Source: a virus
Length of the DNA stretch: 55,770 bases
Virus record (IMG/VR): IMGVR_UViG_3300034198_022322
Location: 1 to 55,770 of that record
Direction: 5' to 3' (one strand)
Shown: positions 1 through 55,603 of the stretch, piece by piece
How positions within the stretch are numbered: position 1 is the first letter of the stretch
How the letters are laid out: the number at the start of each line of letters is the position of its first letter
Notes under the pieces: model-generated
Told to the model about the DNA's origin: nothing
Databases searched by the model: none
Seen by the model: the letters and a program-made list of their open reading frames with translations, nothing else
Position numbers and translations under genes: made by a program

Positions 1-3000
1 GATCTGGCCGGCTTCGATGGCCTTCATGGCCTCGTCGTCGCTGGCAAACTTCCTCTTCTGACCGCCAGGCGCCTTGCCTAGCGTGAGACCGATGATCTGC
101 TCGTGCTTGGGGTTGGCCATGGTCTTGGTGCGGTCCTTGATGGACCAGAGCATGTTGCTGGCCATCATGCGCTCCTGCACGTCCTTGACAGCCTCCGGGG
201 AGGATGGGACGTGGACGGACATGGTGTTCGACAGAATCACTCCGTCCGCACTCATGAACGTCTCGTAGCCAGGGACGGTGAGGTCGTAGCCTGTCTCGCG
301 GATGCCGGTCTTTTGGACGTCTTCGACAGTCGCCCAAGTGATGTGCTCCTGACACAGAATGTCGCGTACCCATCGGCTCAGCAGCTCGGAGTCCAGCGCG
401 CCCCTGTAGGCCGGCAGCGCCTCCATACGTGTCAGCAGGTTCTGGTACCGTCGGGCGCCAAGCACCCCTCCCGCATGCGCGGCGGTCTTCACGATCGCCG
501 CAAGCTTGTACGTCTCTGACGTTTTGTCGCGATCGGCGGAGAACGGTGCTGCAGTGGCGTAGACGCCGTCACGCAGGATTTTGGCGTTGGTCGCAGTCAT
601 CGCGATGTGCCCGGACCGCAACAGCACGAGAGCAGCGTCTCGCGCACTGACGCGACGCGCATACATCTCACCAAGGTGATGCAACACCTTGCGTGCCGAG
701 GTGCGCGAGACGATACCTTCCGTCTTCGCCTTCACCCACTGCGTGCACATGTTCTGCTGGTGCATCTTCCATTCCAGATCGTCTGCTCCTGCCTCGCGGT
801 CCTCCTTGGCCACCTTGGGGTTGACGAGGTCGTTTTGAACGACGTCAAAGATGCAGCGCGGGACGACGGCCTTGTCAAATGACGCAGCTGTGTTTTCCCT
901 GGCCACCTCCGCTTTGACAAAGTTCTCACGCTTGTAGGATGTGGCCAGACGGTCGAACAGGTTCAGCCGCTTGCAGTCCCAAGACGACATCACGAGGATC
1001 CAGCAGTCGTTGCCGGCGATGGTTTCCTTGGACCAGGTGACCGATGCTCGCACGTCCAAGGTCATGCACAGAGCTTGCAGTTCACGGATCAAGCGCAGGG
1101 AGGTGGAGCAGATGCTGAACACATTCCCACCACCGCCCGGCTTGGCGGGGTTGATGGAGATGCTTCCGTCTGTGTCCACCATACCGGAGAGGAACCCGCG
1201 GCGGAACTCTTCCGGAGCGCGGAACAAGAATCCGGGTACGCGCTTGTTCCCGGAACCGGCAGTATTGTCGTCGCGGTCTCCGCCCAGATGGGTCTGCAAG
1301 AACGCGGCGACGTGCTCGCTACCTGCGAAGTTGAAGCTGTGCTTGATGGTATCGCCATAGCGATCGTCGCCTTCCGTTTTTTTACTGACCAGACGGTGGT
1401 AGTAAAGGGTTCCTTCCGGGTCGAGATGGGTTTCAATGAACCGCTTCAGGCGCTCGGAATTGTCCTCCGTGAGGTCGGCTAGGTGGATGGTGCGGAGACC
1501 TTTCTGATTACGCTTAGCGTAGAAATCGTAGTCCTGCTTGTCCCACCAACCGTCGCCGCACATGGCGCCCAAAAACCAGCCGAACTCGAAATCCAGTGCG
1601 GACGAGATCGTCGGCGTGACCGCAACCTCCTCGATAGGTTCCAGCGTGGCGATCAGCTCGCGGAGATTTCGTCCGCACGGGACCGCAATGCGCTTGGCGA
1701 GGGCCTCCGTCGGCGTCCAGCGTCCCATCTCACCAGTGACCGGATCCATGCCGTAGACGGCCCGAGGGTCGTCGTCGGTGAAAGTCTGCCGACGGTTGGA
1801 GAGCGTGACGATCTCGACCGGCGGCGAAGTGTGCTCGCTCCAACCGGAGACGTCAGCCCACACGAGGGAACTTGTCGCCTCGTCAAACGCGATCACCTTG
1901 GTACCCGGCAGGGCGTAAAAGAACTTGATGTAGCTGTTGGTGCCTTGCTTCTCGCCAATGAGCTCAGAGCTGTGCGGGAAGTCTTCCAGATCAATGACGG
2001 CCACTTCGTGAGTTGCCGGATCGACGTGGGGTAGTTGAAGTTTGTTGAACATGTCGGGAGTGTTCCCAATAATTTGAAAACGGTCAATAAGATATGACGG
2101 TAGGTCTGAAATTAGACCTCTAGGAATTGCTGTAACTACTTGATTGTTAGCATCATCGCCGTCGAAATCGGCGTTATGACCTTCTGTAATAAAGGTATTG
2201 ATGCGAATCGCGTCGCCTTTGACCAACCTTGGATTCTGCCCTGTCGCATTGAATTTGTGCCATGCAGGGCTCCGCGTCACGACCACCGGCCGCTTCTTGA
2301 ATTCCTCCTCCATCGCCTTGGTGGCCTGCGGCGTCCGGTCCACGATGTGACGCAGAGCTGCGCCGGCCGCCATCCCTCCGCGCACCAGCGTACGCTGCAC
2401 GTAGTTGCCGTACAGCTTCCACGCCATGTCCTCAGGCAGGCCCACCTCATCCATTCCCAGGTCTGCGTCCGGGATGATGACGCCGCGGCCTACAGTGTCC
2501 ACAGGCTTCGACAGCATCTTCGACTGGTAGAACGAGGACTTTGGTCCGCTGCCGGTGACGGTCTCGAAGAAGCCCTTCACCGCACGAGCCTTGGTCTTGG
2601 GGTTGGGAGAGTCTCCGTACCCGTAGGCTGCCTTCACGGCCTGGTTCATGTCCGCGTACACCTCTCCGGAGCCGGCGCGCCCCATCTCCTTCTCTGTGCG
2701 GTCGTACAGGCGGCGATACTCGATCAGGTCGCGGTACAGCTCGTTTGCGTCCCCGGGGAGGAAGGTGTCTCCGGTCACGGCGAACGGTCTGAACTTGGGC
2801 GGGATGACTGGGACGTGGTTGATCATCAAGTCGGTTGGCTTGATGTCGTTCTTGCGCAACCCGTCCAGGATGTTCAGCAGCCGCACAGCCCTTGGCCTGG
2901 CTGTTTTCTTTTTGTCCTGAATCACCTTCCGCTGCTCGGCTTCAAGCGAGGCAAGGTCCAAGTTGGAGAGGGCGTGCTGGATGGCCTCAGGGCCAGTGAG

Positions 3001-3015
3001 CGGCGGGTTGGTCAT
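1..3015 (-). CDS. rpoC: RNA polymerase beta' subunit, catalytic part, intein-interrupted, 3' end outside window
   Basis: Open from ATG at 3015 to the left edge (1005 codons visible, no stop). It is the phage homologue of RNA polymerase beta', which carries the Mg-binding active site. Visible blocks are HVPVIPPKFRPF (residues 67-78; cf. LPVLPPxLRP), VGRGVIIPDADL and VGLPEDMAWKLY (about 175-202), and the absolute active-site motif NADFDGD (281-287). The next conserved block, TMSVHVPSSPEAV, appears only at residue 931, so about 643 residues of intein intervene (separate entry). The ATG overlaps the upstream stop as ATGA. The first roughly 270 residues of bacterial beta' (zinc site and N-terminal clamp) are absent here, so the subunit may be split as beta is. 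Identity is near certain; how the N-terminal clamp is supplied is unknown. Confidence 0.93.
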   Translation of the reverse strand, partial: MTNPPLTGPEAIQHALSNLDLASLEAEQRKVIQDKKKTARPRAVRLLNILDGLRKNDIKPTDLMINHVPVIPPKFRPFAVTGDTFLPGDANELYRDLIEYRRLYDRTEKEMGRAGSGEVYADMNQAVKAAYGYGDSPNPKTKARAVKGFFETVTGSGPKSSFYQSKMLSKPVDTVGRGVIIPDADLGMDEVGLPEDMAWKLYGNYVQRTLVRGGMAAGAALRHIVDRTPQATKAMEEEFKKRPVVVTRSPAWHKFNATGQNPRLVKGDAIRINTFITEGHNADFDGDDANNQVVTAIPRGLISDLPSYLIDRFQIIGNTPDMFNKLQLPHVDPATHEVAVIDLEDFPHSSELIGEKQGTNSYIKFFYALPGTKVIAFDEATSSLVWADVSGWSEHTSPPVEIVTLSNRRQTFTDDDPRAVYGMDPVTGEMGRWTPTEALAKRIAVPCGRNLRELIATLEPIEEVAVTPTISSALDFEFGWFLGAMCGDGWWDKQDYDFYAKRNQKGLRTIHLADLTEDNSERLKRFIETHLDPEGTLYYHRLVSKKTEGDDRYGDTIKHSFNFAGSEHVAAFLQTHLGGDRDDNTAGSGNKRVPGFLFRAPEEFRRGFLSGMVDTDGSISINPAKPGGGGNVFSICSTSLRLIRELQALCMTLDVRASVTWSKETIAGNDCWILVMSSWDCKRLNLFDRLATSYKRENFVKAEVARENTAASFDKAVVPRCIFDVVQNDLVNPKVAKEDREAGADDLEWKMHQQNMCTQWVKAKTEGIVSRTSARKVLHHLGEMYARRVSARDAALVLLRSGHIAMTATNAKILRDGVYATAAPFSADRDKTSETYKLAAIVKTAAHAGGVLGARRYQNLLTRMEALPAYRGALDSELLSRWVRDILCQEHITWATVEDVQKTGIRETGYDLTVPGYETFMSADGVILSNTMSVHVPSSPEAVKDVQERMMASNMLWSIKDRTKTMANPKHEQIIGLTLGKAPGGQKRKFASDDEAMKAIEAGQI
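226..2154 (-). other. Large LAGLIDADG intein inside beta' NADFDGD motif
   Basis: The in-frame insertion splits NADFDGD from TMSVHVP. The C-terminal splice region is canonical: YDLTVPGYETFMSADG, then VILSN, then Thr as +1. Two LAGLIDADG-type helices are visible, FGWFLGAMCGDGWW and RGFLSGMVDTDGSI. Block-B-like text is VEIVTLSNRRQTFTDDDPRA. The N-terminus is odd: the residue right after NADFDGD is Asp (DANNQVVTAIPRG), not Cys, Ser or Ala. A block-A-like ALPGTKVIAFDEA occurs only about 80 residues later. The exact N-terminal boundary is therefore inferred from extein conservation. The first 110 or so bases of the element are markedly AT-rich. About 643 residues is large for an intein. Confidence 0.85.
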
Positions 3016-15232: not shown

Positions 15233-16036
15233 TTACAGCTTGGCGTTGGCGAAGGTGTATTTCAGCAGCCCGTCGATCAGCTCGGTGTGCGCGTCGGCGA
15301 ACAGCGATGGATACTTGGCTTTGACCAGGTCGGCGATCTGGTTGAAGACCAACCGAATCTCCCATTCGGCGTGTTCCGACGTGCGCATCACCAAGGTGTT
15401 GCGCAGCGTGCGGAGGCTGAGGCTGAAGCCCATCTCGTTGGCCTGCCCGTTGGGGAGCATGCGGCGGAGCGCCGAGGTGATCTTCTTCTTGGTGGAGAAG
15501 GGCAGGCCTTCCTTGGCCAGGCCCATCTTCTCGACCGCGGCGTCATACCACTTCTCGAGGATTTCCTGCAGGTCCATGATCTCGACATTGATCGGGTCCA
15601 GAATCGGGTCGACCACTAGGTCCAGCTTGTCGGTGCGGACGTAGCGGCCGGACGTCTGGCTGAAGGCCGTGCCGACCCGGTGGCGCACCAGCTCGTGGGT
15701 GAACACGCGCGAGCAGTTGCTGACGATGAAGTTGAGCTGGCAGTGCTCGAAGACGCTACCGTGACCAGACTCGATGGTGCCGAGGAGGTTGGCGTAAATG
15801 TCGCGCACGCGGCTGATATTCTCGTTCTTCCGGGTGGTGAGGGCGGAGTAGCACAGCTTGGCGTACATGCTGCACAGGATCTCGCCGTCGGATAGGCCCT
15901 CTTTGCAGGCCTGGTGCATGGCCTCGGAGAACTCAAGCTGGTCGGTGTCCGTGAGGTAGCGGATGATCTCGTCGTAGTTGGCAGCGGTGGCGCCGGTGAA
16001 GTAGGTCTTCGGTTGTACGAATTGGCCTTTTGGCAT
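15233..16036 (-). CDS. thyX: FAD-dependent thymidylate synthase ThyX
   Basis: 267 residues. ThyX converts dUMP to dTMP using methylene-THF, FAD and NADPH. The signature RHRxxxxxSxxSxR is present at residues 118-131 (RHRVGTAFSQTSGR), and the preceding family block SGHGSVFEHCQLNF at 90-103 is intact. Length is typical for phage ThyX. It is followed by a terminator, so it ends a transcription unit that also carries the dNMP kinase, both supplying dNTPs for phage synthesis. The leader CCAATTACCACCATG has no SD. Confidence 0.96.
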   Translation of the reverse strand: MPKGQFVQPKTYFTGATAANYDEIIRYLTDTDQLEFSEAMHQACKEGLSDGEILCSMYAKLCYSALTTRKNENISRVRDIYANLLGTIESGHGSVFEHCQLNFIVSNCSRVFTHELVRHRVGTAFSQTSGRYVRTDKLDLVVDPILDPINVEIMDLQEILEKWYDAAVEKMGLAKEGLPFSTKKKITSALRRMLPNGQANEMGFSLSLRTLRNTLVMRTSEHAEWEIRLVFNQIADLVKAKYPSLFADAHTELIDGLLKYTFANAKL

Positions 16037-20812: not shown

Positions 20813-21044
20813 GCTCCTCCTCTCCAGCCATCGCTTGAACGGCCCTGTAGCCTGCGCTCATGGAGCGCTCATCCAGCTCTTGCACCTTGCGAGTCAGCAT
20901 CGTGATTGTCGTGTCCGGGTTGTGATCGGACGCCGCACGATTTCGTGACCACTCTGAGATAGTTTCCAAACCTTGGTTCATACGAGTGACTCTTGCCAAC
21001 TTGAACACCTCTGTCAGATTTTGCTCTGCACTCCCCTCACTCAC
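20802..21044 (-). CDS. Hypothetical helical protein
   Basis: 80 residues (NLTEVFKLARVTRMNQGLET, MLTRKVQELDERSMSAGYRA). Predicted coiled-coil character in the C-terminal half. It shares ATGA with the KilA-N gene upstream. Function unknown. Confidence 0.68.
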   Translation of the reverse strand: MSEGSAEQNLTEVFKLARVTRMNQGLETISEWSRNRAASDHNPDTTITMLTRKVQELDERSMSAGYRAVQAMAGEEEHDL

Positions 21045-22477
21045 GCTGTCTCGTCCTGGTTGGAGGTGTAGTAGTTTTCAGCCAATGCCAGCAACGCTTC
21101 GGACAGAGTCTTGGCCGACCCCTGAGCCCTGATGGTCCGCGCTGTCTGCTCCACGTTGCACCACGCGGTCCACGTATCGTCCTCGTAGCGCAGCCGGACG
21201 CCAGCTGCGCGTTCCGTGGGATTCAGTTCATCCCAAGAGTGAGAGTCGTGCTCGAAGAACGAGTAGCGATTCTTGAGTCGGTACATCCTGGTATCCGGGC
21301 GGGTACGGACGAGGCGGCGCAGCATTACTTCAGGGCGCTGAAGCATCCACCGCAAGAGGGGCTCTGCACCCTCAGGCGTGACCAAGATCACGCGACTCTC
21401 GCCGGTGACCTCTACCCCGTTCGAATTGATGACCGGCTCGCACACGCCTTGTTCTGTTTTCCGACGTTTCACGAAGTCGTGCGCGCTGTACATCAGCACA
21501 CCGTTCTCCATCCACTTCTGCGAAATGGCCGATTCCTTGGTCTTGCGACATCCTTTGACAAGCTCCCGGTGCAAGACTCCCAGCGCCCGAAGAACCTTCA
21601 GGCCGCTGATCGGTCCGTGGCCGTGCTCTGACGACGTGCGATTAAGCCACGTGCTGAGCGGGATGGCCTTGACCTCCTTGGCTCGAATGTTCGCGAGATC
21701 CTCAGCCAGCGACACGGCCTCGTCGCGACGCGCCGCAGAATGACTGACCTCAAGCTTCAGGCGCTCCTTGGCGTCCTCGCTGTCCGCCAGAGCCCTCAGG
21801 GCCTCCGAGAAGGTCTGAGGCAGGCGCGCGTCCGCGGAAAGGCCTGAAGACAGCGTGACGCCTCTCGAGAGCCACTCCCGCACCCACTGCGAGACCTGGA
21901 CAGCGAACTTTGCAGAGCACCACTGCGCCACGTGTATGGCGATGTCCGGATGCACCCAAGTCCCTTGGTCCGCGCCGATTTTACCTCTTCGGATGTTGAC
22001 CAAATTGATTGTGGGGATCCCCACAATCAGGCTAAGCTCCTCCATAAACTCTTGAGCGCCAGCGGTTCGGAAATAATCGGCCGTGAATCTACCCACGGCC
22101 TTGCACAGTGCTGTCGCGTTGATGTAACCGTCCGATTGACGCTGACCGACCTCGCAATTTCCGATATTTCGTACAACTATCGCGGATAATTGCGCCGCGT
22201 CATCTTCCTTGACCCTCTTCGGTACTGGTACCTCCATCAGCAGCTGCACACTTCGCTTGGCGCTGTCCAGCGACTTCATAGGCTGGTTATCAATGAAGCA
22301 TTCTTCATCGCGATACCTCAGTGTTCTGAGGGAGCCTTTCTTCTGCACCCACCGCTCGTCGTCATCAAAATCTGTGACGATGTAGTCTCCGACGACCGTC
22401 TGCCTCAGATTGTGCTCGGTCGGCATCAACATGCCATCTTTCAAGACGCATTCCCTACCGTAAATGATGCTGCTCAT
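21041..22477 (-). CDS. KilA-N domain protein
   Basis: 478 residues. Residues about 110-210 hold the KilA-N DNA-binding module: VGQRQSDGYINATALCKAVG, RFTADYFRTAGAQEFMEELS, then GADQGTWVHPDIAIHVAQWC and FAVQVSQWVREWL. The first 100 residues (VVGDYIVTDFDDDERWVQKK) and the C-terminal 250, with a coiled-coil stretch and a second basic region (LLRWMLQRPEVMLRRLVRTR), are unassigned. KilA-N proteins are common in large DNA viruses and phages as DNA-binding regulators or anti-host factors. ATGA overlaps on both sides. Confidence 0.88.
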   Translation of the reverse strand: MSSIIYGRECVLKDGMLMPTEHNLRQTVVGDYIVTDFDDDERWVQKKGSLRTLRYRDEECFIDNQPMKSLDSAKRSVQLLMEVPVPKRVKEDDAAQLSAIVVRNIGNCEVGQRQSDGYINATALCKAVGRFTADYFRTAGAQEFMEELSLIVGIPTINLVNIRRGKIGADQGTWVHPDIAIHVAQWCSAKFAVQVSQWVREWLSRGVTLSSGLSADARLPQTFSEALRALADSEDAKERLKLEVSHSAARRDEAVSLAEDLANIRAKEVKAIPLSTWLNRTSSEHGHGPISGLKVLRALGVLHRELVKGCRKTKESAISQKWMENGVLMYSAHDFVKRRKTEQGVCEPVINSNGVEVTGESRVILVTPEGAEPLLRWMLQRPEVMLRRLVRTRPDTRMYRLKNRYSFFEHDSHSWDELNPTERAAGVRLRYEDDTWTAWCNVEQTARTIRAQGSAKTLSEALLALAENYYTSNQDETA

Positions 22478-24846: not shown

Positions 24847-26787
24847 TCAGCTGCCGTCGGTCGGTTCAAGACCAATTCGTTTCCTGAGGCGCTCCGGAAG
24901 CTCAGCTCTGGAAGCCAGAATGTCCTGCAGCTCGTTGTTTGTCAGACCGAGAAGCACGCGTACGCTGTCCTCCATCGCCGGGTTGATCACCGGTCTCGGT
25001 AGTTTGATCCTACCCCATCTATCGCCCGTGACGATGCGCGAGTCAAATAGGCCTCCTTGGATGGGCTCCAGCGTGTTGATGTTCACGATGTCCCCATTGT
25101 CGACATCGATCGGCTGCTCTGCCTCCAGATCCTTGTCGGTGAACGGAGCGAGCCTATAGCGGCCCTTTCCTACTTCGCGTGTGCTCATGCCGGCGCCGCT
25201 CAGCAGCGCCCTGAACTTGTTCCAGACAAACGGTACGCCCGGCTTCGGGAGAGGCTTGCCTGCCCGCAGATCGCGCCAGTACTGGTCGTTGCGGGCTCCG
25301 CGTAGCGTGGTGTGCTCTCGCATGAGGGCGTAGGCTCCGCTGGAGAGCGCAGCGTAGTTCTCCAGACCGGAGAATCGCTTGGCCTGCGCGTTCTCGCCGC
25401 CGCCTCTGGCTGGTTGCTCCGACTGGTCGTAGCTGCCTGTACCGCGCGCCGAAAGCTTTCCTTCGCTCGTATGATGTAGCTTGTGGATGAAGCCGTAGCC
25501 GACCGTCACAGGATTCGTCAGGAAGCGGTTGGCGACCGGATCGTAGATGCGCTCCTTGGATTTGACGCCTGCCTCAGCTTCCTGTTGCGCAATGAAGTCG
25601 TTCCAGCTCTGTCCCTTCAGATACGATGGGATCTTGAGCGGTTCGCCTTTGGCCTTGGCGACCTTGCCGAGCCGGATCTCATGCTGCGAAGCCGGGTTGG
25701 CCCGGGACACCAGAGACAGCGGGTTCAGCAGCACATCGAGAGCCTGCCCATCTTCCGTGCGCGGCATCTGGTCGTCTGGGATCACCCTCGAGACCGTGGC
25801 TTTGGCTCCTTGCCGCAAAACGATCTTGTCGCCTTCCGAGGTCGGCTTGGTGTAGCGCAGCACGACCTTTGTACCATTTTTGGTACGCCTCGCGTCGATG
25901 ACTTCAGCCGGTTGTGAGCCGTCCCAGGTGATGGATGAGTCTCTGCGCGCTTGGCGCAAGGACTTGGAAAGTTTGCCGATGTTGGCTCCGGCGGAGGAAA
26001 GTGTGCGCGGCATGGACCCGAGGATAACCGGATCGCCTGGCTGCAACACCGTGCCCGGTTTGACCATTCCGTCGTTCTCTATGGTACCCAGCTGCTCCTT
26101 TGAGAAGCGGGTAGGGAACAACGCCCGGAAATGGTTGAGGTCCTGCTTGAGGTTGTCGCTTTGATCCTGCGTGACGACCTTGTACTGCACCGCGGCGAGA
26201 CGCTTGGCGAAGCTTTCGCTGATCGGTACTGCGTCATCCATGGAGAAGCCCTTCCACGGCACAAGGCCGATCCTGGCGTTCAGACCCATGTTCTGGACGC
26301 CGTTGTCGTCGGTGTAGCTCGAAGCTGCCACCACTTGGTTGGGCTTGAACACAGAGCCCTTCTGCACCAGCGCCCGCGACGTAATTCCGGACTTCTGGTT
26401 GAAGCTCTGGTTGTTGTAGAGATCGAGATCTGCTTTGTCTCCGTCGTCATACTGCACGCGGATGTAGTCCGGCGTCACGTCTAGGACACGACCGCCTTTC
26501 TTGGCGCGGACGGCACCTAGCTTTTCGCCAGCGAGCTCATCAAAGCTGCGTCCCAGCTTATCGCTCGTGTCCAAGTTCTGGACCAAAGGGGCCTCGCCGT
26601 TTTCCACGGCCAAGGCCTGGTTTACGAATCGCCCTCCGTAGAACAGTCGGGGCGGCTGCACCGCTGACTGCAACGGGATTTGATTGGTGTGCGATCCGAA
26701 CTGCCGGGAGGCGTCGGTCAGCTCAAAGTCGATGTCGTCGTCCGCGTCATCGACTTCTTCCAGACGGTTCTTTCTGACTACGTGCAT
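24847..26787 (-). CDS. rpoB: RNA polymerase beta subunit, C-terminal fragment
   Basis: 646 residues equivalent to the C-terminal half of bacterial beta. Readable blocks: VRAKKGGRVLDVTPDYIRV (about 103-121), GLVPWKGFSMDDAVPISES (about 184-202; cf. PWxGYNFEDAIVISE), EGDKIVLRQGAKATVSRVIP and DDQMPRTEDGQALDVLLNPL (cf. GDKMAGRHGNKGVVS...MPyLxDGxPxDIVLNPLG, both catalytic-cleft Lys retained), VGYGFIHKLHHTSEGKLSAR and GTGSYDQSEQPARGGGENAQ (cf. VGYMYMLKL.H...DK.HARSTG). It lies 3 bp after the GNAT-fusion gene and about 12 kb from the N and middle fragments, from which it is separated by virion genes. Confidence 0.94.
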   Translation of the reverse strand: MHVVRKNRLEEVDDADDDIDFELTDASRQFGSHTNQIPLQSAVQPPRLFYGGRFVNQALAVENGEAPLVQNLDTSDKLGRSFDELAGEKLGAVRAKKGGRVLDVTPDYIRVQYDDGDKADLDLYNNQSFNQKSGITSRALVQKGSVFKPNQVVAASSYTDDNGVQNMGLNARIGLVPWKGFSMDDAVPISESFAKRLAAVQYKVVTQDQSDNLKQDLNHFRALFPTRFSKEQLGTIENDGMVKPGTVLQPGDPVILGSMPRTLSSAGANIGKLSKSLRQARRDSSITWDGSQPAEVIDARRTKNGTKVVLRYTKPTSEGDKIVLRQGAKATVSRVIPDDQMPRTEDGQALDVLLNPLSLVSRANPASQHEIRLGKVAKAKGEPLKIPSYLKGQSWNDFIAQQEAEAGVKSKERIYDPVANRFLTNPVTVGYGFIHKLHHTSEGKLSARGTGSYDQSEQPARGGGENAQAKRFSGLENYAALSSGAYALMREHTTLRGARNDQYWRDLRAGKPLPKPGVPFVWNKFRALLSGAGMSTREVGKGRYRLAPFTDKDLEAEQPIDVDNGDIVNINTLEPIQGGLFDSRIVTGDRWGRIKLPRPVINPAMEDSVRVLLGLTNNELQDILASRAELPERLRKRIGLEPTDGS

Positions 26788-38897: not shown

Positions 38898-40025
38898 TCA
38901 ATCGGGTAGTTTGAGTGTTTTGCCTACCAGATCCGAAGGGCTGACCCACTGCTTCTTACCGGTCTTCCGGTTGAGCATGACTTGGTAGACGCGACCATCA
39001 GAACCTATTCTGGTCCCGTGTGCAAGTCTAACATCGATACCTGCCTTGTCCGAATTGCCAGTCCAGAAGCCTGGATGGTTCGACTTACCTCGCACGTACA
39101 GCATTCCACCCGGGACAGTCGCGCAGTAGACCATACCGTTGAAGCTTTCTGAGCTCCAGCACTCCGGTAACAGACGCTGACTTTCGAGTCTGAGCCCGGA
39201 TGTTTCGTAACTTTTATCGAGCAAGTCTAGCGTCGGACTCGTAGGGATGTAGATGTCAGCTCCCGACAGGTCCGAAGCGAATGTCACAGACAGCTCGAAC
39301 GCTTCAGGGTCGCGCTTGAATACCACTCGATGTGACGGCGTCACCATCATGTGAATGTTGGATGAGGAACCCACAATCATCGGGCCGGAATACAATTCGC
39401 GCACCACCCTGGACGCGCGATGCCACTCAAATCGGCCAGACACGTTGCAGGCAAAAACGTCGTCGTCCTTGACCGCGTCCCATCTCACCCAGCCGCGCTT
39501 TGTGTAGACCTCGGAATCCCCGGGCATGCATTCTGGGCCAGAAATGGGATCCACGAATCCGAACTGCGAAGCATGAACGGATTGCATTGAGAGCGTGATC
39601 GCGCTTGGGTCGCCAACACCTCCAGGTCCCATCTTTGTCACGCGCCGCTTCTGCTCCAGGATGTGCATGGGATTGATTTCCTCCAGCGCCGGAGCCAGCG
39701 GGTTGCCTGCGAGGTAGCCCACAGTGTAGGGCGCGAACACATCGGCGCCCATGGGTGTGAGGCTCTTGGATCGACTCAAGCGGCCCATGAGGGTTCGGAG
39801 TGTACGCCCGTGATCCAGCTTCACACGTTCCGCCATCAGGCGGTCTGGGGTGTGGATTCGGTCGTTCGGCAAACTGTCCCGCTCGTCCGGCTCGGCCAAC
39901 CCTCGGTTGACCGCCAGCAGCTTTTCGGTAGCGGACAGCAAGCCGTCCAGACCTACCGAAGCATACGTTTCGTGCTCGTCGTCGTCGGCGAGGTATCTGT
40001 GGTGCGCGGTCGGGTTCGTGGTCAT
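38898..40025 (-). CDS. rpoB: RNA polymerase beta subunit, middle fragment with mini-intein
   Basis: 375 residues. The extein carries the beta fork/Rif-like region: HILEQKRRVTKMGPGGVGDP (cf. HKRRLSALGPGGL) and VHASQFGFVDPISGPE (cf. VHPTHYGRVCPIETPEG), residues about 121-165. A 159-residue intein follows (166-324), then SDKAGIDVRLAHGTRIGSDG. It shares ATGA with the beta-N gene, so the two fragments are probably made together. The corresponding region in bacteria lines the RNA exit and Rif pocket. The C-terminal fragment is encoded 12 kb away. Confidence 0.92.
   Translation of the reverse strand: MTTNPTAHHRYLADDDEHETYASVGLDGLLSATEKLLAVNRGLAEPDERDSLPNDRIHTPDRLMAERVKLDHGRTLRTLMGRLSRSKSLTPMGADVFAPYTVGYLAGNPLAPALEEINPMHILEQKRRVTKMGPGGVGDPSAITLSMQSVHASQFGFVDPISGPECMPGDSEVYTKRGWVRWDAVKDDDVFACNVSGRFEWHRASRVVRELYSGPMIVGSSSNIHMMVTPSHRVVFKRDPEAFELSVTFASDLSGADIYIPTSPTLDLLDKSYETSGLRLESQRLLPECWSSESFNGMVYCATVPGGMLYVRGKSNHPGFWTGNSDKAGIDVRLAHGTRIGSDGRVYQVMLNRKTGKKQWVSPSDLVGKTLKLPD
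39054..39530 (-). other. Mini-intein in RNA polymerase beta (159 aa)
   Basis: Begins CMPGDSEVYTKRGWVRWDAV (block A, Cys1) and ends with block F/G NGMVYCATVPGGMLYVRGKS and FWTGN, then Ser+1. Block B is NIHMMVTPSHRVVF (TxxH). There is no LAGLIDADG or HNH motif, so it is a minimal splicing element. It interrupts beta immediately after ISGPE, the equivalent of bacterial IETPE. Confidence 0.9.
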
Positions 40026-48423: not shown

Positions 48424-51400
48424 TTATGACACCAGAAGCTTCCAATTTCTGAATGCCAGCAGCTTCTTGAGACGCTCTGGAGTCGGGTGCCAGTTCACGT
48501 CATCCAACTGCGCTTGTTCTTCTGCGCTCGGCCGGGTGGACCAACGGTAGTTGAACTCGTTGTCGACCCCGTACTGCAGCACACGCTTTCCGAACTCGTC
48601 GTTGTACTCCCACGTGTTGATTTCCGACATCACGATCGTGTGGATCTTCGCCACGACAAACCGCTCTTCCAGCGGGCAGAGAGTCACGAGGCTGTCGTAC
48701 AAGCAGGTCATCGGGCGAGCCTTCATCCCCAGTTGACGATACAGGGCCAGCGCGTAGTTGCACGCTCTTGCCGACGTAGCGCCCACAGACTCCTGCATGG
48801 GGTAGTTTCTGAGCTCACGACCCAGCGCGGACTCGATCGAGTTGCGCGTGCGCCAGCCAACCCCGGAGTTCGCCGAGTGCGTGTTGCAGTGGCAAATTCG
48901 CCCGGAGACCGCGCGGTAGTATCCCTTGGTCTTTGGGACGTTGCCCATCTCTTCCAAGAACTCAGAAGCCCGGGGCTGGCGTGCCGCGATGGCGTCCAGT
49001 CCCTTCTGCCCAGTACCTGGCTCAGGTTTGACCCCTGTGTCCGACTCGATCTTTCGCTCCAGCGAAGCAGGGGAGGCACCATATGCCGAAGAGTTGGATA
49101 CCAGCACGCCACTACAGGTAAACCTGTGCCGCGGACCGGCATTCAGCAAGTCATACGTTTCCGCCTCCCCGCAACAGTACTGCTCGCATGCCTCGTCAAA
49201 ATCTCGACGTTCGAGAGCCCCATCTTCATGAGGCCCAGAATGGTCTTCCAAGTGTACAGAACGTGAGGGTGGTCCACTAGAAACTGATTTGCCACTCGGC
49301 AGTTGAGATGAGCTCCCAACTGCCTGTTCATCAGGTTGGTTGATCGATCGACCAACCTCAGGTTTTCCGGGCAGTAGTCCCCGTCGTTGTCCTTCCTGTC
49401 GAAGTCCCCCTCCATGATCTGCTGATCTGTGAATTGAAGCGCCCAAGCTATGAACGCCTCCTTGTGCGGAAACTTGACCTTGATTCCTCGACCCAGATAC
49501 CGATGCGACGACACATGCGTGTCCGTCTCGCAACGCTGTTTCATTGCTGCAAACCTTCGCGTCAGAGACGAGATTACCTGAGGATCTCTCCCCGGGTATT
49601 TCACACGGCTCCGCTGAGGGTTCTGACACTGACACTTTGACGACTTTCCTGTCTCCATGTTCCTCAGTTCCTTCCAGCGCTCCTTCCCGCAGTGCAAGCA
49701 CTGGGTCAAGACGTAGAAGTAGCCCGATCCCCTGCGTTCCAGCGAACTCGGTAGAAGCCTCAGACCAGGCAACCGCAACGCTTTGACCCTCTGACGCAGT
49801 GCGGACAAGGGTAAGCGATTCGGCGCACGCCTCTTCGAATTTGACTTTGCCCCGCTCGACTGTCCACACATCGTGGAGCCGGGTAGCACGCAGTCCTTGA
49901 TATTCGATGATTTTCTTTCGGCCTGAGTAGATGACGCCTTCATGACGCACCCACTCTACACCGTCCCATACGAGGTCGTCAACCTTGATGTCACAGATGG
50001 CTACGGAGCCTCGATCGCGCGTGAGAACCATAGAATCACCGTCCACGCAGAAGTTCAATACTTTCCCAGCATTACGATGAACCTTGTTAATCATCTCTTC
50101 TCGTGGACGCTCGTAGGTGCGCTCCACAACTGACCAATGGATATCATAACCCCTATGTTTGACGGTACCATCAGGGTTACGAGCCAGATCGTCTTCAGAG
50201 ACTTTTCCGAGGAACTTTCCGTCCTTCCAAGCAGCCATAACGTACTCAGGATTCTGCTTATGCAACGGAATGCCTGTTTCGGAAGGATCGGAGTAGCACA
50301 CACGTACATACTCCACGCCAAACTTCTTTGGGTCTTTCAGCTCTGCCCATTCAGGATCTGGATCCTGCAAGATACGTATTAAATCCTCATCTCCAGAGAT
50401 AACACCTAATCCGTGCATTTCTGCTGTTTTATAGTCTGATTCACATAACACATAGTTATGTGGAGAGTTAATACATGATCTAATAGATGGCAAACTCTTC
50501 TCATCACAACCAACCCAGCGCATCAGTTCCTCCGGCAGCTCACCCTTCGAATGAGCCTCGTTGATCACCCGCACCACCGTCTTGGCAATTCGAGCATTCA
50601 CGTACGCCGGATAGTTCAGGGTGTTCGGAGCCCATGAGCGGGGACGTGATGTTCCGGTGCAGCTCATCTGGCCGTGGATGCGGCCGTCTGACGCCACCCA
50701 CTGATGCAGCCCGTGCTCCTCGATCTCCTCCTCGCCTGTCTCCGGATCGATCCAGACGTCAGCCTCCTTCAGGAACGCCTTGCAGAGGTTGCCGACCGCA
50801 TTGAGGTTCAGAAGCTCGTCTACGGTCGGGCACTGCTCGCTGAGGATCTGCAGCGTCTGCTTGTCCACAGCCGGCGTGTAGAGCTTCTGACGATCCGGAG
50901 GAAGCTCCAGCACCTTCTCCCACGCCATGGACGGCAGACCCTTCGCTTTCTGGTTCGTCGTCTTGATCGGCTCCAGGTCCTCCACATCGAACAGCCAGGT
51001 GCGCATCTGGTCAGCTGACCGGATGTTGAAGTTGGGGCTGTCGTAGAGGTGCTGCAGCATCTTCTGCCACTGAGGCAGGTCAGAGAGCGGTACGTGCGGC
51101 TTGAGGAGGTTGTAGGCCTCTTCGGTGGTCTCCTTGGCGTAAACCTCCCGCGAGAGCTTCAAAGCGTCCCTGAGGGGTATCAGGGCCATCAGGCGGTTGG
51201 CTACGTGAGCCTTCGCCTCCGAGTGGATTCGATGCTTCAGGTGGACCTCCAGTTGCTGCCTGACGAAGTGGAACAACCGCCTCAGGTCATCCATCAGCGG
51301 AATGTCCATCGGAAGCCCTCCCACACAGAACTCGGTGAACACGTCCGTGACGAACGGGTTGTGGAGTTTTTTGTAGTACTCCCAGAGCTGCTGAGCCTGG

Positions 51401-52731: not shown

Positions 52732-55603
52732 TACGGTGTTTGGGCTGGGAGCGCACCTTGCGGTAGAACTCCATTACGTGGGGGTCGACGATTACGTCGA
52801 AGTCCGTGGACGTCAACGTCAGACCTTCCGGAGACCGAAGTCGCGACATCGCCACGTACACGTGACCCGGCGCAAACGATCGGCTGAGGTTGATCGTGCA
52901 ATCGTCAAGGCTGATGCCCTGGCTGTTGTGGTTGACGAATCCGTTGCCGACAAATGCGTGACCATCGGGTACGCAAATGTCCCGCATGTCGCCGTCTACC
53001 GTCTCGATGGCTGCGATCTCGTCCAAAAAGCAGCCATGCTCCGCCTCTTCAAATAAGGCGCCAAAAGAGTTTGAGACCGTTTTACACAGCGGCAAATCGC
53101 GCTGCATGGCGGCTAGGTGCGCGTCGGACAGACCGCACGAAGCATTCGCCACTCTGCTCAAAAACCTGGCCCAGTGACTGAACTCGCCGAAACCGACGCC
53201 GCGGACGTGCGGGTAAACGGTTCTGAGGGATTGCTGCCAGGTTTTCGCCAATTTTGCACCGAGGTCGGCCGGGTAGAAGCCGGCCTGGACCTTTGGTACT
53301 TTCTGAGACCGTCGGGTCTTGACCGTTAACGCCTTCGCTTTTCTTTGGATCGAGAACCCGACAGAAAGCTCGAATTTCTTCACGTCCGGTCCTGTAATGT
53401 TGATCCTCCAAGCGTCCTTCATACGTCCGAGCGTTCCGATGATTCCCAGATTCAGCAGCATCACGTGCACTTCGCGCAGCAGTTTTTCTGACGCCGAAGT
53501 GACGTGCACGCACGAGTTAACGCCTCCGTCAGCATCAAAGTAGCCTTGAATGAACGACTGCTGCTGAGATTTTGTCCCCTTCAGGATTACATGAGGTACG
53601 CATTTCTCGCGAGCTGTGGCATACGAAAGACCAATGGACAACAGCCAATTCCGGACCGGCCAGCTGTGCACATAAGCGGTCTTTGCTTTCGTTTTAGACT
53701 TCGACTTGATCGACGCCTTGAGTCCAAACTCGGACCACATGATCTTGACGAACCGGCGGACTACGCACGGATCCATCGAAGTAACGTCCACCCGGGCATC
53801 TCTTTGGTCAGACTGACATCCATCACCCACCAACATCCCGAGCAGCCAGGCGAGATCATTCGAGATCACCGAAGGGAACTGACAAGGCTTGGATTTTTTC
53901 CCAATTTCGACCGAGATAGGCGGCAAACTTCCATCACCAAAAGCCTGAGTGTTGCCCCGCATTCTCAGCGCGTCCCCTACCCTCAGATCGGGAGCTAGAA
54001 CCCACTCCATGCCGCAACCGTCCGTCCTCATCAAAGGATGCCTCACGCTGCACGTCAGCTGGTAGCCGCGGCGCGTTGTGATTCGGAGCCCGGCCTCGCT
54101 CACTCCCACGAAAGGTTCGCAGGTAGACTTGAATTCGGTCAGGCCGCAAACCTCAGGCATTTGAGGGCTGGTACAAACCTCATCGATCGTGAGAAGGCCT
54201 GAAGAGGTCGGCAGCAAAGTATTCTTGTCGACGCACTTATGAATGGTGATCGCGGTAGCCGGGATCACAGGGTACTGGACGTAGCGGTGCTCCAGCGATC
54301 TGTCGTCCTGCGAGGTTCCATTTTCGTTGTCCAAGCAGAAGCTCATCCGCTCAAGCTTCACTCGCACTTCCTCCTGATCGTGCGTGGCGGGAATTCTCAC
54401 AATCATCGCGGGTCCGATCATTCCTTCAAAGAATCCCTTGGTGCCGTTTACGTACTGACCTTGGAAGTCGTTGACGCTGAAGAGCACCGGCATGCCAGGG
54501 CGAAGGTTCAGGATTTCGCGCACAGGCTTGTTCCCGATGATCTTTTCCTTGAGGTTTTGAGGCGTCTCCCAGTCCTTGAGCGCCTTGACCGGGCTCAGGA
54601 TCATTTCACCCTCCAGCGTGACCGTAGGGCCTTCGTACCAATCCAGCGCCAGCTGGTTGATCGAATCTGCCTCCTTGTTGGTAGAGACCAAGAACGAGGC
54701 TCTGCGGACGTCGTCTTCCGTCTGCGGCCGCACGAACCGTGAGACATACTCACGCTCCTCGGCCAACAGAGGCTCACCGACCCTCCGGCGGTTCAAGAAG
54801 TTTGCGAACTTCTCATCGGCCTGGCGGAACACCTTGGTCAGCTCGACGGTGCGGATCTCTGCTCGCTCCCAAGATGGGCTGAGGAATGCCCAGTCTGGTC
54901 GGCTGCCATTGTGGCGATCAACCGGGGGAAGCTGGGCCATGTCCCCGATGAAGATCATCTGGATACCGCCGAACGGTTCGTCTTTGTCCCGCACCGTCCG
55001 GAAAAAGAAATCCAGGTAGCCCAGAAGGCCCACACCTGCGATCATCGACACCTCGTCGAGGATCAAGGCCTCCGTCGACCGGATGCGCGCTTTGACGCCT
55101 TCCCGAGCCTTGGACATGTTGTCCTTTGCCGTGCTCCAAGCGCTGTAGGTGCGCAGATACACAGCCCTGGCCTGTTCCTCAGTCATGTCCGCTGGAGGCG
55201 TGTTGTAGGAGCTGAACACGGGTCCCGTGCGGATACCAGCCCACGAGTGGATGGTCTTGCCCTTGAGGTGGCTTCCGGCGATTCCAGTCGAGGCGGTCAC
55301 GTAAGCGTTGGTTCCGCGGTAATCGAACTCCGGGATCAGGATGTGCTTCACGAACGTGGTCTTGCCCACGCCGGCACCGCCAGTGATAAACACGTTGGAG
55401 TGGTCGCAGAAGATGCTCTCAAAGATGTCGATGTGCTCGTCCGTCAGCTCAATGCCAGCTTCCGACTTGTAATAGGCGACGCGTTCGCGCACCTCGCTCT
55501 GACTCAGTGAAATACGCTTCGGGCGCGAGCTCTGGTTGTCTGCGAGTCTCGACACGTCAAACTTGATGCCGCCTGTGGCGACTGCGAATGGGTCAAAATT
55601 CAT
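52706..55603 (-). CDS. PIF1/Dda-type superfamily 1B helicase with intein
   Basis: 965 residues (528 after splicing). Motifs: Walker A VFITGGAGVGKTTF (71-84), Ia YVTASTGIAGSHLKGKTIHS, II ALILDEVSMIAG (179-190), III FIGDMAQLPPVDRH, IV-type FLVSTNKEADSIN, V AITIHK (451-456) completed after the intein as SQGISLDDC, and VI HVYVAMSRLRSPEGL. Moves 5'-3' on single strands in known relatives and probably serves the replication fork with the adjacent polymerase. It shares ATGA with the upstream partial gene. Confidence 0.94.
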   Translation of the reverse strand: MNFDPFAVATGGIKFDVSRLADNQSSRPKRISLSQSEVRERVAYYKSEAGIELTDEHIDIFESIFCDHSNVFITGGAGVGKTTFVKHILIPEFDYRGTNAYVTASTGIAGSHLKGKTIHSWAGIRTGPVFSSYNTPPADMTEEQARAVYLRTYSAWSTAKDNMSKAREGVKARIRSTEALILDEVSMIAGVGLLGYLDFFFRTVRDKDEPFGGIQMIFIGDMAQLPPVDRHNGSRPDWAFLSPSWERAEIRTVELTKVFRQADEKFANFLNRRRVGEPLLAEEREYVSRFVRPQTEDDVRRASFLVSTNKEADSINQLALDWYEGPTVTLEGEMILSPVKALKDWETPQNLKEKIIGNKPVREILNLRPGMPVLFSVNDFQGQYVNGTKGFFEGMIGPAMIVRIPATHDQEEVRVKLERMSFCLDNENGTSQDDRSLEHRYVQYPVIPATAITIHKCVDKNTLLPTSSGLLTIDEVCTSPQMPEVCGLTEFKSTCEPFVGVSEAGLRITTRRGYQLTCSVRHPLMRTDGCGMEWVLAPDLRVGDALRMRGNTQAFGDGSLPPISVEIGKKSKPCQFPSVISNDLAWLLGMLVGDGCQSDQRDARVDVTSMDPCVVRRFVKIMWSEFGLKASIKSKSKTKAKTAYVHSWPVRNWLLSIGLSYATAREKCVPHVILKGTKSQQQSFIQGYFDADGGVNSCVHVTSASEKLLREVHVMLLNLGIIGTLGRMKDAWRINITGPDVKKFELSVGFSIQRKAKALTVKTRRSQKVPKVQAGFYPADLGAKLAKTWQQSLRTVYPHVRGVGFGEFSHWARFLSRVANASCGLSDAHLAAMQRDLPLCKTVSNSFGALFEEAEHGCFLDEIAAIETVDGDMRDICVPDGHAFVGNGFVNHNSQGISLDDCTINLSRSFAPGHVYVAMSRLRSPEGLTLTSTDFDVIVDPHVMEFYRKVRSQPKHRNGREIPST
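52925..54235 (-). other. LAGLIDADG intein in helicase motif V (437 aa)
   Basis: Begins CVDKNTLLPTSSGLLTIDEV (Cys1) after AITIHK; block B RRGYQLTCSVRHPLM; LAGLIDADG helices LAWLLGMLVGDG and IQGYFDADGGVN. It ends ICVPDGHAFVGNGFVNHN followed by Ser of SQG. Complete splicing and endonuclease parts in a single frame. Confidence 0.95.

Follow-up and report, generated by a model that had tools for sequence, protein, structure and literature searches.

The locus and its exact borders

We analysed 55,770 bases of viral DNA, the IMG/VR record IMGVR_UViG_3300034198_022322 (hereafter the window). Its minus strand from 3057 to 1 encodes the N-terminal part of a phage RNA polymerase β′ subunit, and this gene is interrupted by an intein. 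The identity of the host gene is given by Rpb1 domain 2 (PF00623, 61.5 bits, cut-off 25.3) with its NADFDGD motif and by TIGR02386 (E=2.6e-44, yet under the full-length cut-off). The intein starts at codon 302 (GAT) and runs in frame for 643 codons, from D1 to N643, between NADFDGD and TMSVHVP; the reading frame is open across the whole insertion. Coordinates are collected in Table 1.

Within the insertion the Intein_splicing domain reaches 27.4 bits, under the Pfam cut-off of 35.8, whereas LAGLIDADG_3 (PF14528) reaches 27.9 bits (E=2.9e-6), over its cut-off of 22.5. A match to the intein C-terminus was also found. Both LAGLIDADG motifs, GAMCGDG and GMVDTDG, are intact. Judged by its sequence, the insertion holds a predicted LAGLIDADG homing endonuclease.

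The borders can be read from intein-free phage relatives, which carry an uninterrupted DFDGDTMSVHVP at the site. A scan of viral contigs with the pattern D[FY]DGD-T-M-x-x-H-V-P gave 66 intein-free β′ stretches. The closest intein-free relative, L112, is 67% identical to the joined exteins of the window over 369 amino acids spanning the junction, and in both L112 and L103 DFDGD and TM are contiguous, which makes them exact empty alleles. Because L112 reads through the junction, the empty site is DFDGD|TM and the first intein residue is Asp, with no assumption needed. An earlier reading of the window from its letters alone (the original prediction) had proposed an intein that splits the Mg-binding motif here, with a non-nucleophilic Asp as residue 1. 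The coordinates were right, as the empty alleles, the domain matches and the open frame attest, and the intein-free relatives fix the border at that Asp. The exteins of L112 are also 81% identical to those of L001, a sister phage that does carry the insertion. Presence versus absence at this level of extein identity shows, as far as sequence comparison goes, that the element is mobile or easily lost.

It had further been claimed that no active enzyme could form without splicing. This stands as a fair inference, because the interrupted gene is the only one with Rpb1 domain 2 in 12 of 12 relatives' records, although these records are possibly incomplete. In one relative (L050, 1441-3114) the N-extein reads DFNGD in place of DFDGD, and one catalytic Asp of the polymerase is missing. 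In the window, separate genes for pieces of RNA polymerase β (Rpb2_6, Rpb2_3) lie at 24847-26787 and 38898-40025 (-); to judge by its genes, the phage apparently encodes an RNA polymerase in several pieces.

A family of β′ inteins without an N-terminal nucleophile

The insertion is not unique. The family comprises at least 29 distinct phage β′ inteins at the same site, mostly 30-60% identical to each other. In L001, a 184 kb phage, the insertion is 76% identical to the window intein, compared with 69% for the N-extein. At about 643 residues the window intein had been called very large: it is large for the family, whose members mostly have 501-530 amino acids, but the surplus sits in the endonuclease region.

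Members were gathered with a block B scan (DDPRAVYG), an independent block F scan ([YF]DxTVPGxETF; viral and genome contigs) and follow-up searches. The two scans returned overlapping sets at the same insertion site. Each pattern presets some letters in its own set, and each set confirms the motif of the other. Residue 1, G:6, the final Asn and Thr+1 are touched by neither pattern, while the Asp at F:4 is included in the block F pattern and absent from that of block B. Being pattern-based, the scans give no estimate of how abundant the family is. We aligned the 23 complete members (median pairwise identity 37%), among which the window and L001 are the only pair above 61%.

Residue 1 varies widely. 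In the 23 full inteins it is Q in 8, D and E in 3 each, C, A and F in 2 each, and K, L and Y once each; six other members have Q, Q, K, Y, L and Y. It is non-nucleophilic in 27 of 29 members, Cys in two and Ser in none. A comparison with phage β′ inteins sharing the block B sequence had been suggested as a check. The 28 further members at the same site show that the missing nucleophile is a stable trait, neither sequencing error nor decay.

The other end is constant. All 28 members with a visible end, the 23 complete ones included, terminate in Leu-Ser-Asn|Thr. Invariant in 23 of 23 are D-D-D-x-R of block B, an S-x-H about 20 residues upstream of it, the Asp at F:4, E and T of block F, Ser at G:6, the final Asn and Thr+1. 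No Cys is conserved elsewhere among the 23 aligned sequences. A tblastn search with three family inteins against a phage collection found no family member among cultured phages. Its one long match, LR745208.1, was set aside as a class 1 intein (Cys1 ... His-Asn|Ser) in a helicase-like gene.

Class membership

Inteins are sorted into three recognised classes; two of them lack an N-terminal nucleophile and are each thought to have one origin (PMC4031507). Class 1 requires Cys1 or Ser1 and class 3 requires Cys at F:4, whereas class 2 as described has Ala1, Ser at G:6, Cys+1, His at B:10 and Asp at F:4 (PMC4031507). The WCT motif of class 3 is defined in PMC7664689 and PMC7891396.

Like inteins in general, which end in Asn followed by Cys, Ser or Thr, the window element ends in Asn643|Thr. 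Its Asp1 does not agree with class 1. Class 3 resembles the family in lacking an N-terminal nucleophile and in its phage origin, but it is excluded, since all members have Asp at F:4 and Leu at G:5 instead of Cys and Thr; the Asp at the class 3 Cys position, already noticed in the window, thus proves constant in the family. Block B has no His (B:10 is Pro or Glu in the ungapped profile alignment and Asp if shifted by one), and His is likewise missing from its place in block F (Glu or Thr) and from the penultimate position (Ser). The C-terminal splice site is therefore not the textbook one it had been taken for: the penultimate residue is Ser, not His (Ser-Asn|Thr). With a non-nucleophilic residue 1, no Cys at F:4, Thr+1 and no catalytic His, the original prediction was correct that the intein fits none of the three classes simply.

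Class 2, the Mja KlbA type, comes closest. It shares with the family the absence of an N-terminal nucleophile, Asp F:4, Ser G:6 and the C-terminal Asn (PMC4031507). However, KlbA inteins start with Ala, have Cys+1 and require His B:10, and every described case is a KlbA orthologue, whereas in our family residue 1 is variable (Asp in the window, Ala in only two members), Thr stands at +1 throughout and block B is without His. Going by these residues, the family would work most like class 2, yet lies outside its strict definition.

We also compared class 1 inteins of archaeal RNA polymerase A″ (L052, L056, L060, L063, L064, L065 and L067, from Micrarchaeota, Aenigmatarchaeota and relatives). These are homologous over the full profile length, 440 columns including the endonuclease (E=4e-31), and share block F (...TVPG.ETF), Thr+1 and a host gene for the largest RNA polymerase subunit. 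They differ in having Ser1 or Cys1, a T..H block B and a His-Asn end, and they occupy another β′/A″ site (...TQM|TMRTFH).

Thr+1 and selection on the intein

In intein-free phage β′ with at least 40% identity to an intein-bearing extein, position +1 is Ala in 60, Thr in 40, Gln in 7 and Asn in 1, and Thr is over-represented even here, as the set includes a Thr-only scan. The intein-bearing genes have Thr in 28 of 28. We tested the extein's own constraint, and it does not account for Thr. Because the extein alone does not require it, Thr is demanded either by the intein or by the target of its endonuclease. This association, drawn from sequences, is the best available evidence for a catalytic Thr+1, with the endonuclease target as the remaining alternative.

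In the comparison of the window with L001 the two Hint parts have ratios of nonsynonymous to synonymous substitution rates (dN/dS) of 0.107 and 0.113, and the endonuclease has 0.154. Such values point to strongly purifying selection and suggest that the intein is functional, not decayed. In L078 the endonuclease motifs have decayed, yet block B, block F and LSN|T are kept.

Fold and the N-terminal segment

AlphaFold models were made for two lead sequences, the window (pLDDT 77.4) and L015 (pLDDT 78.8). The AlphaFold2 (AF2) models match the solved inteins 6rpp (Z 18.0, root-mean-square deviation 2.3 over 161 residues) and 1mi8 (Z 16.6, 2.1 over 139). Model residues 15..657 align with 4e2t 1..172 and 14..659 with 4kl5 0..139; model residue 15 is intein residue 1, and the register of L015 is the same. 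The models thus show a predicted Hint fold with residue 1 at the canonical intein position. Structure prediction had been proposed as a check on the N-terminus; in the models residues 5-11 form the first Hint strand, and residue 1 aligns with residue 1 of solved inteins.

Profile alignments give a different picture. Against the archaeal RpoA″ inteins and PI-PkoII, the ancestral first residue falls about 33 residues into the intein, at M[TSA]AR[FY]K. Taken with the models, this suggests that a new N-terminal segment now fills the place of strand 1, with a remnant of the original block A behind it, although the two methods disagree on homology. Such a replacement would explain the absent nucleophile. 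An origin of the segment from a duplicated β′ strand (TMxVHVP) was considered, but the similarity by eye is too weak.

Natural splits and an internal start codon

In two relatives the gene is already broken near this segment. L032 (with the near-identical L022 and L034, from another metagenome) encodes the N-extein and 21 intein residues, followed by a stop (L032 9371-9800). After the stop there is a promoter-like, sigma-70-like site (TTGACA-16-TATAGT) and then a new ATG that opens the remaining intein and C-extein. L048 (8500-9300) has the same kind of break after about 27 residues, and its split is independent of that in L032. Both lack an N-terminal nucleophile (Leu1 and Tyr1, respectively) and a Cys at F:4. 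Their short N-terminal pieces of 21-27 residues recall the atypically split inteins and the split class 3 AceL NrdHF intein (PMC7891396, PMC3443213). Split class 2 inteins are expected to exist, but none was reported in PMC7891396; the splits of L032 and L048 differ from known atypical ones in occurring without N-terminal nucleophile or F:4 Cys.

In the other members the frame is uninterrupted. At the homologous column (window residue 35) an NTG start codon occurs in 21 of 23 (17 ATG, 3 GTG, 1 TTG). Fifteen of these 21 have a Shine-Dalgarno-like (SD-like) tetramer or longer at 4-11 nt; across the 489 alignment columns the runner-up scores 2. Synonymous reshuffling gave 8.3 expected SD-like sites versus 16 observed (P=1e-4), for a column noticed before testing. 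Three members found or read later fit as well, with GTG in L155 and ATG in L156 and L158, each accompanied by GGAG or AAGG. The window, L001 and L077 keep the ATG without an SD-like sequence. In most relatives, though not visibly in the window, internal start and ribosome-binding site would allow the part after the first strand to be made separately. From these sequence features, the internal start likely lets the endonuclease-bearing part be made on its own, and it may play a role in trans-splicing.

The damaged-endonuclease members suggest that the internal start is linked to a live endonuclease. In L078 both LAGLIDADG motifs and the internal start are gone, in L039 motif 1 contains GNGW, and neither has the ribosome-binding site; but several intact members, including the window, lack it too.

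In most GC-rich members third-position GC falls sharply in the first ~60 nt (20 codons) of the intein. In the window (2154-2095) it is 0.15 compared with about 0.85 in the gene, and the empty allele L112 shows no dip.

How splicing might proceed

We consider it probable that the window carries a functional, homing-endonuclease-bearing β′ intein from a family that splices without an N-terminal nucleophile. In the mechanism we propose, Thr+1 would directly attack the amide between Asp(-1) and residue 1, as in class 2, and form the usual branched ester. Cyclisation of Asn643 would then free the intein, and an O-to-N shift would rebuild DFDGD-TMSVHVP and so the active site of the polymerase. The invariant DDD.R of block B and E-T of block F probably stand in for the missing catalytic histidines.

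Several points weigh against this mechanism. Splicing is something we infer from sequence and models. As a nucleophile Thr is weak for a direct attack on an amide; the class 2 inteins described so far rely on Cys+1 and require His B:10 (PMC4031507). The Thr+1 association may in part reflect a homing endonuclease target that needs that codon. By profile alignment the ancestral Ser1 falls near residue 33-36 instead of at residue 1, and for the place of the N-junction in the active site we depend on AlphaFold models whose confidence there is moderate (pLDDT 58-84).

One could also argue that the intein is functional but that the first attack comes from an internal residue instead of Thr+1, for example Ser642 or a block F Thr, through a new block F/G branched intermediate analogous to class 3. 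Ser642, Thr616, Thr626 and Thr632 are invariant in 23 of 23, and class 3 is a precedent for such a detour (PMC4031507). We nevertheless think this unlikely. F:4 is Asp in all members, and the T of YDxTV and the ETF also occur in the class 1 archaeal RpoA″ relatives, so they are not specific to the family. Ser G:6 is found in class 2 as well, where Cys+1 attacks (PMC4031507).

It is less likely still that splicing has been lost, that the element only cleaves like a bacterial intein-like (BIL) domain and that β′ acts as two non-covalent pieces. Phage RNA polymerases are often built from split subunits, two relatives have the halves on separate genes, and the usual His sites hold no His. Yet a break after DFDGD and before the next strand would fall in the catalytic core, Asn|Thr is retained in 28 of 28 members, the Hint parts evolve at a dN/dS of about 0.11, and the splicing motifs survive endonuclease decay.

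An ordinary class 1 intein, with its nucleophile elsewhere or a Cys or Ser at residue 1 hidden by a sequence error, is refuted for the family and very improbable for the window. The original prediction had pointed to a block-A-like sequence some 80 residues in (ALPGTKV, residue 81), which does look like block A, and two of 29 members do have Cys1. In the models, however, ALPGTKV is an inner strand of a Hint fold that starts at residue 1, and column 81 is Ala, Val, Ile or Met; the unconserved column and the AF2 register together rule it out as block A. At residue 1, whose border the empty alleles fix, 27 of 29 independent members have no Cys, Ser or Thr. Removal from the RNA as an intron, for which we found no supporting point, can hardly account for an open frame of ~500-650 codons in all cis members, the Hint fold, Asn|Thr and purifying selection at the protein level.

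Returning to direct attack by Thr+1, a bolder proposal is possible but, taken as a whole, tentative. The family might represent a new mechanistic type of intein, in which Thr+1 attacks without the three usual histidines by means of an Asp-Asp-Asp/Arg block B, possibly helped by the metal site of the extein DFDGD. A replaced N-terminal segment would provide the first Hint strand, and from the conserved internal start the rest of the intein plus C-extein would be made as a second product. The genes would thus be ready to split, and in the two that already have, class 2-type inteins would for the first time be seen naturally split.

Significance

In the open-access literature we found no paper combining NADFDGD and intein, and no fourth intein class. 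If the proposal is true, a diverse family in which residue 1 varies, Thr stands at +1 and the catalytic His is lacking shows how little of the canonical active site suffices, and how Thr could directly attack an amide. It would also supply the split class 2 type that the field expects but has not seen (PMC7891396), and could yield cysteine-free splicing tools with a nearly free residue 1 and a short N-fragment. The site inside the Mg-binding loop of RNA polymerase would couple phage transcription to splicing.

Features and other elements of the window

Table 1. Features of the interrupted β′ gene, in gene order (window positions).
Feature	Position	Strand	Basis
N-extein, RNA polymerase β′ to NADFDGD, 286 codons from likely ATG	2155..3012	-	PF00623, TIGR02386; 69% identical to L001
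Intein, 643 aa, D1 to N643	226..2154	-	Domain matches, family alignment, empty alleles
Residues 1-34, N-terminal segment with first Hint strand; matches N-fragment of natural splits	2053..2154	-	AF2 strand residues 5-11; first genes of L032 and L048 end here
Met35 codon, homologous to relatives' conserved internal start; no SD-like sequence in window	2050..2052	-	Family alignment
N-terminal Hint region, residues 35-178	1621..2052	-	AF2, VIA-align; dN/dS 0.107 vs L001
Block B TDDDPRAV, residues 126-133; DDD and R invariant, no His	1756..1779	-	Family and profile alignments
LAGLIDADG homing endonuclease insertion (predicted), residues 179-600, borders approximate	355..1620	-	PF14528; endonuclease structures aligned to model 198-435
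LAGLIDADG motif 1 WFLGAMCGDG, residues 193-202	1549..1578	-	Sequence, alignment
LAGLIDADG motif 2 GFLSGMVDTDG, residues 320-330	1165..1197	-	Sequence, alignment
Block F GYDLTVPGYETF, residues 622-633; Asp624 = F:4	256..291	-	Family alignment
Block G DGVILSN; Ser642 = G:6, Asn643 = last residue	226..246	-	Family alignment
Thr+1, proposed attacking residue, C-extein residue 1	223..225	-	Thr in 28/28 members; Ala, Thr or Gln in intein-free relatives
C-extein, first 75 codons (TMSVHVP...), ends at record edge	1..225	-	Reading frame, junction position

Two further inteins lie in the window. A PolA-family DNA polymerase gene contains a 319-residue class-1-like intein (50049..49093, -; Cys1 ... Ser-Asn|Ser) whose central part, read in the intein frame, is filler. 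In another frame of the same intein an open reading frame (49943..49143, -) encodes a 266-residue HNH endonuclease (phrog_374, E=3.6e-20). This arrangement of a genuine intein with an out-of-frame endonuclease recalls the ShiLan element, though ShiLan is without a splicing domain (PMC11855218). The second, a 437-residue LAGLIDADG intein (54235..52925, -; Cys1 ... His-Asn|Ser), sits in a Dda/PIF1-like helicase gene and is absent from the helicase of L001. The window also encodes a ThyX-type thymidylate synthase (15233-16036, -) and a KilA-N domain protein (21041-22477, -).
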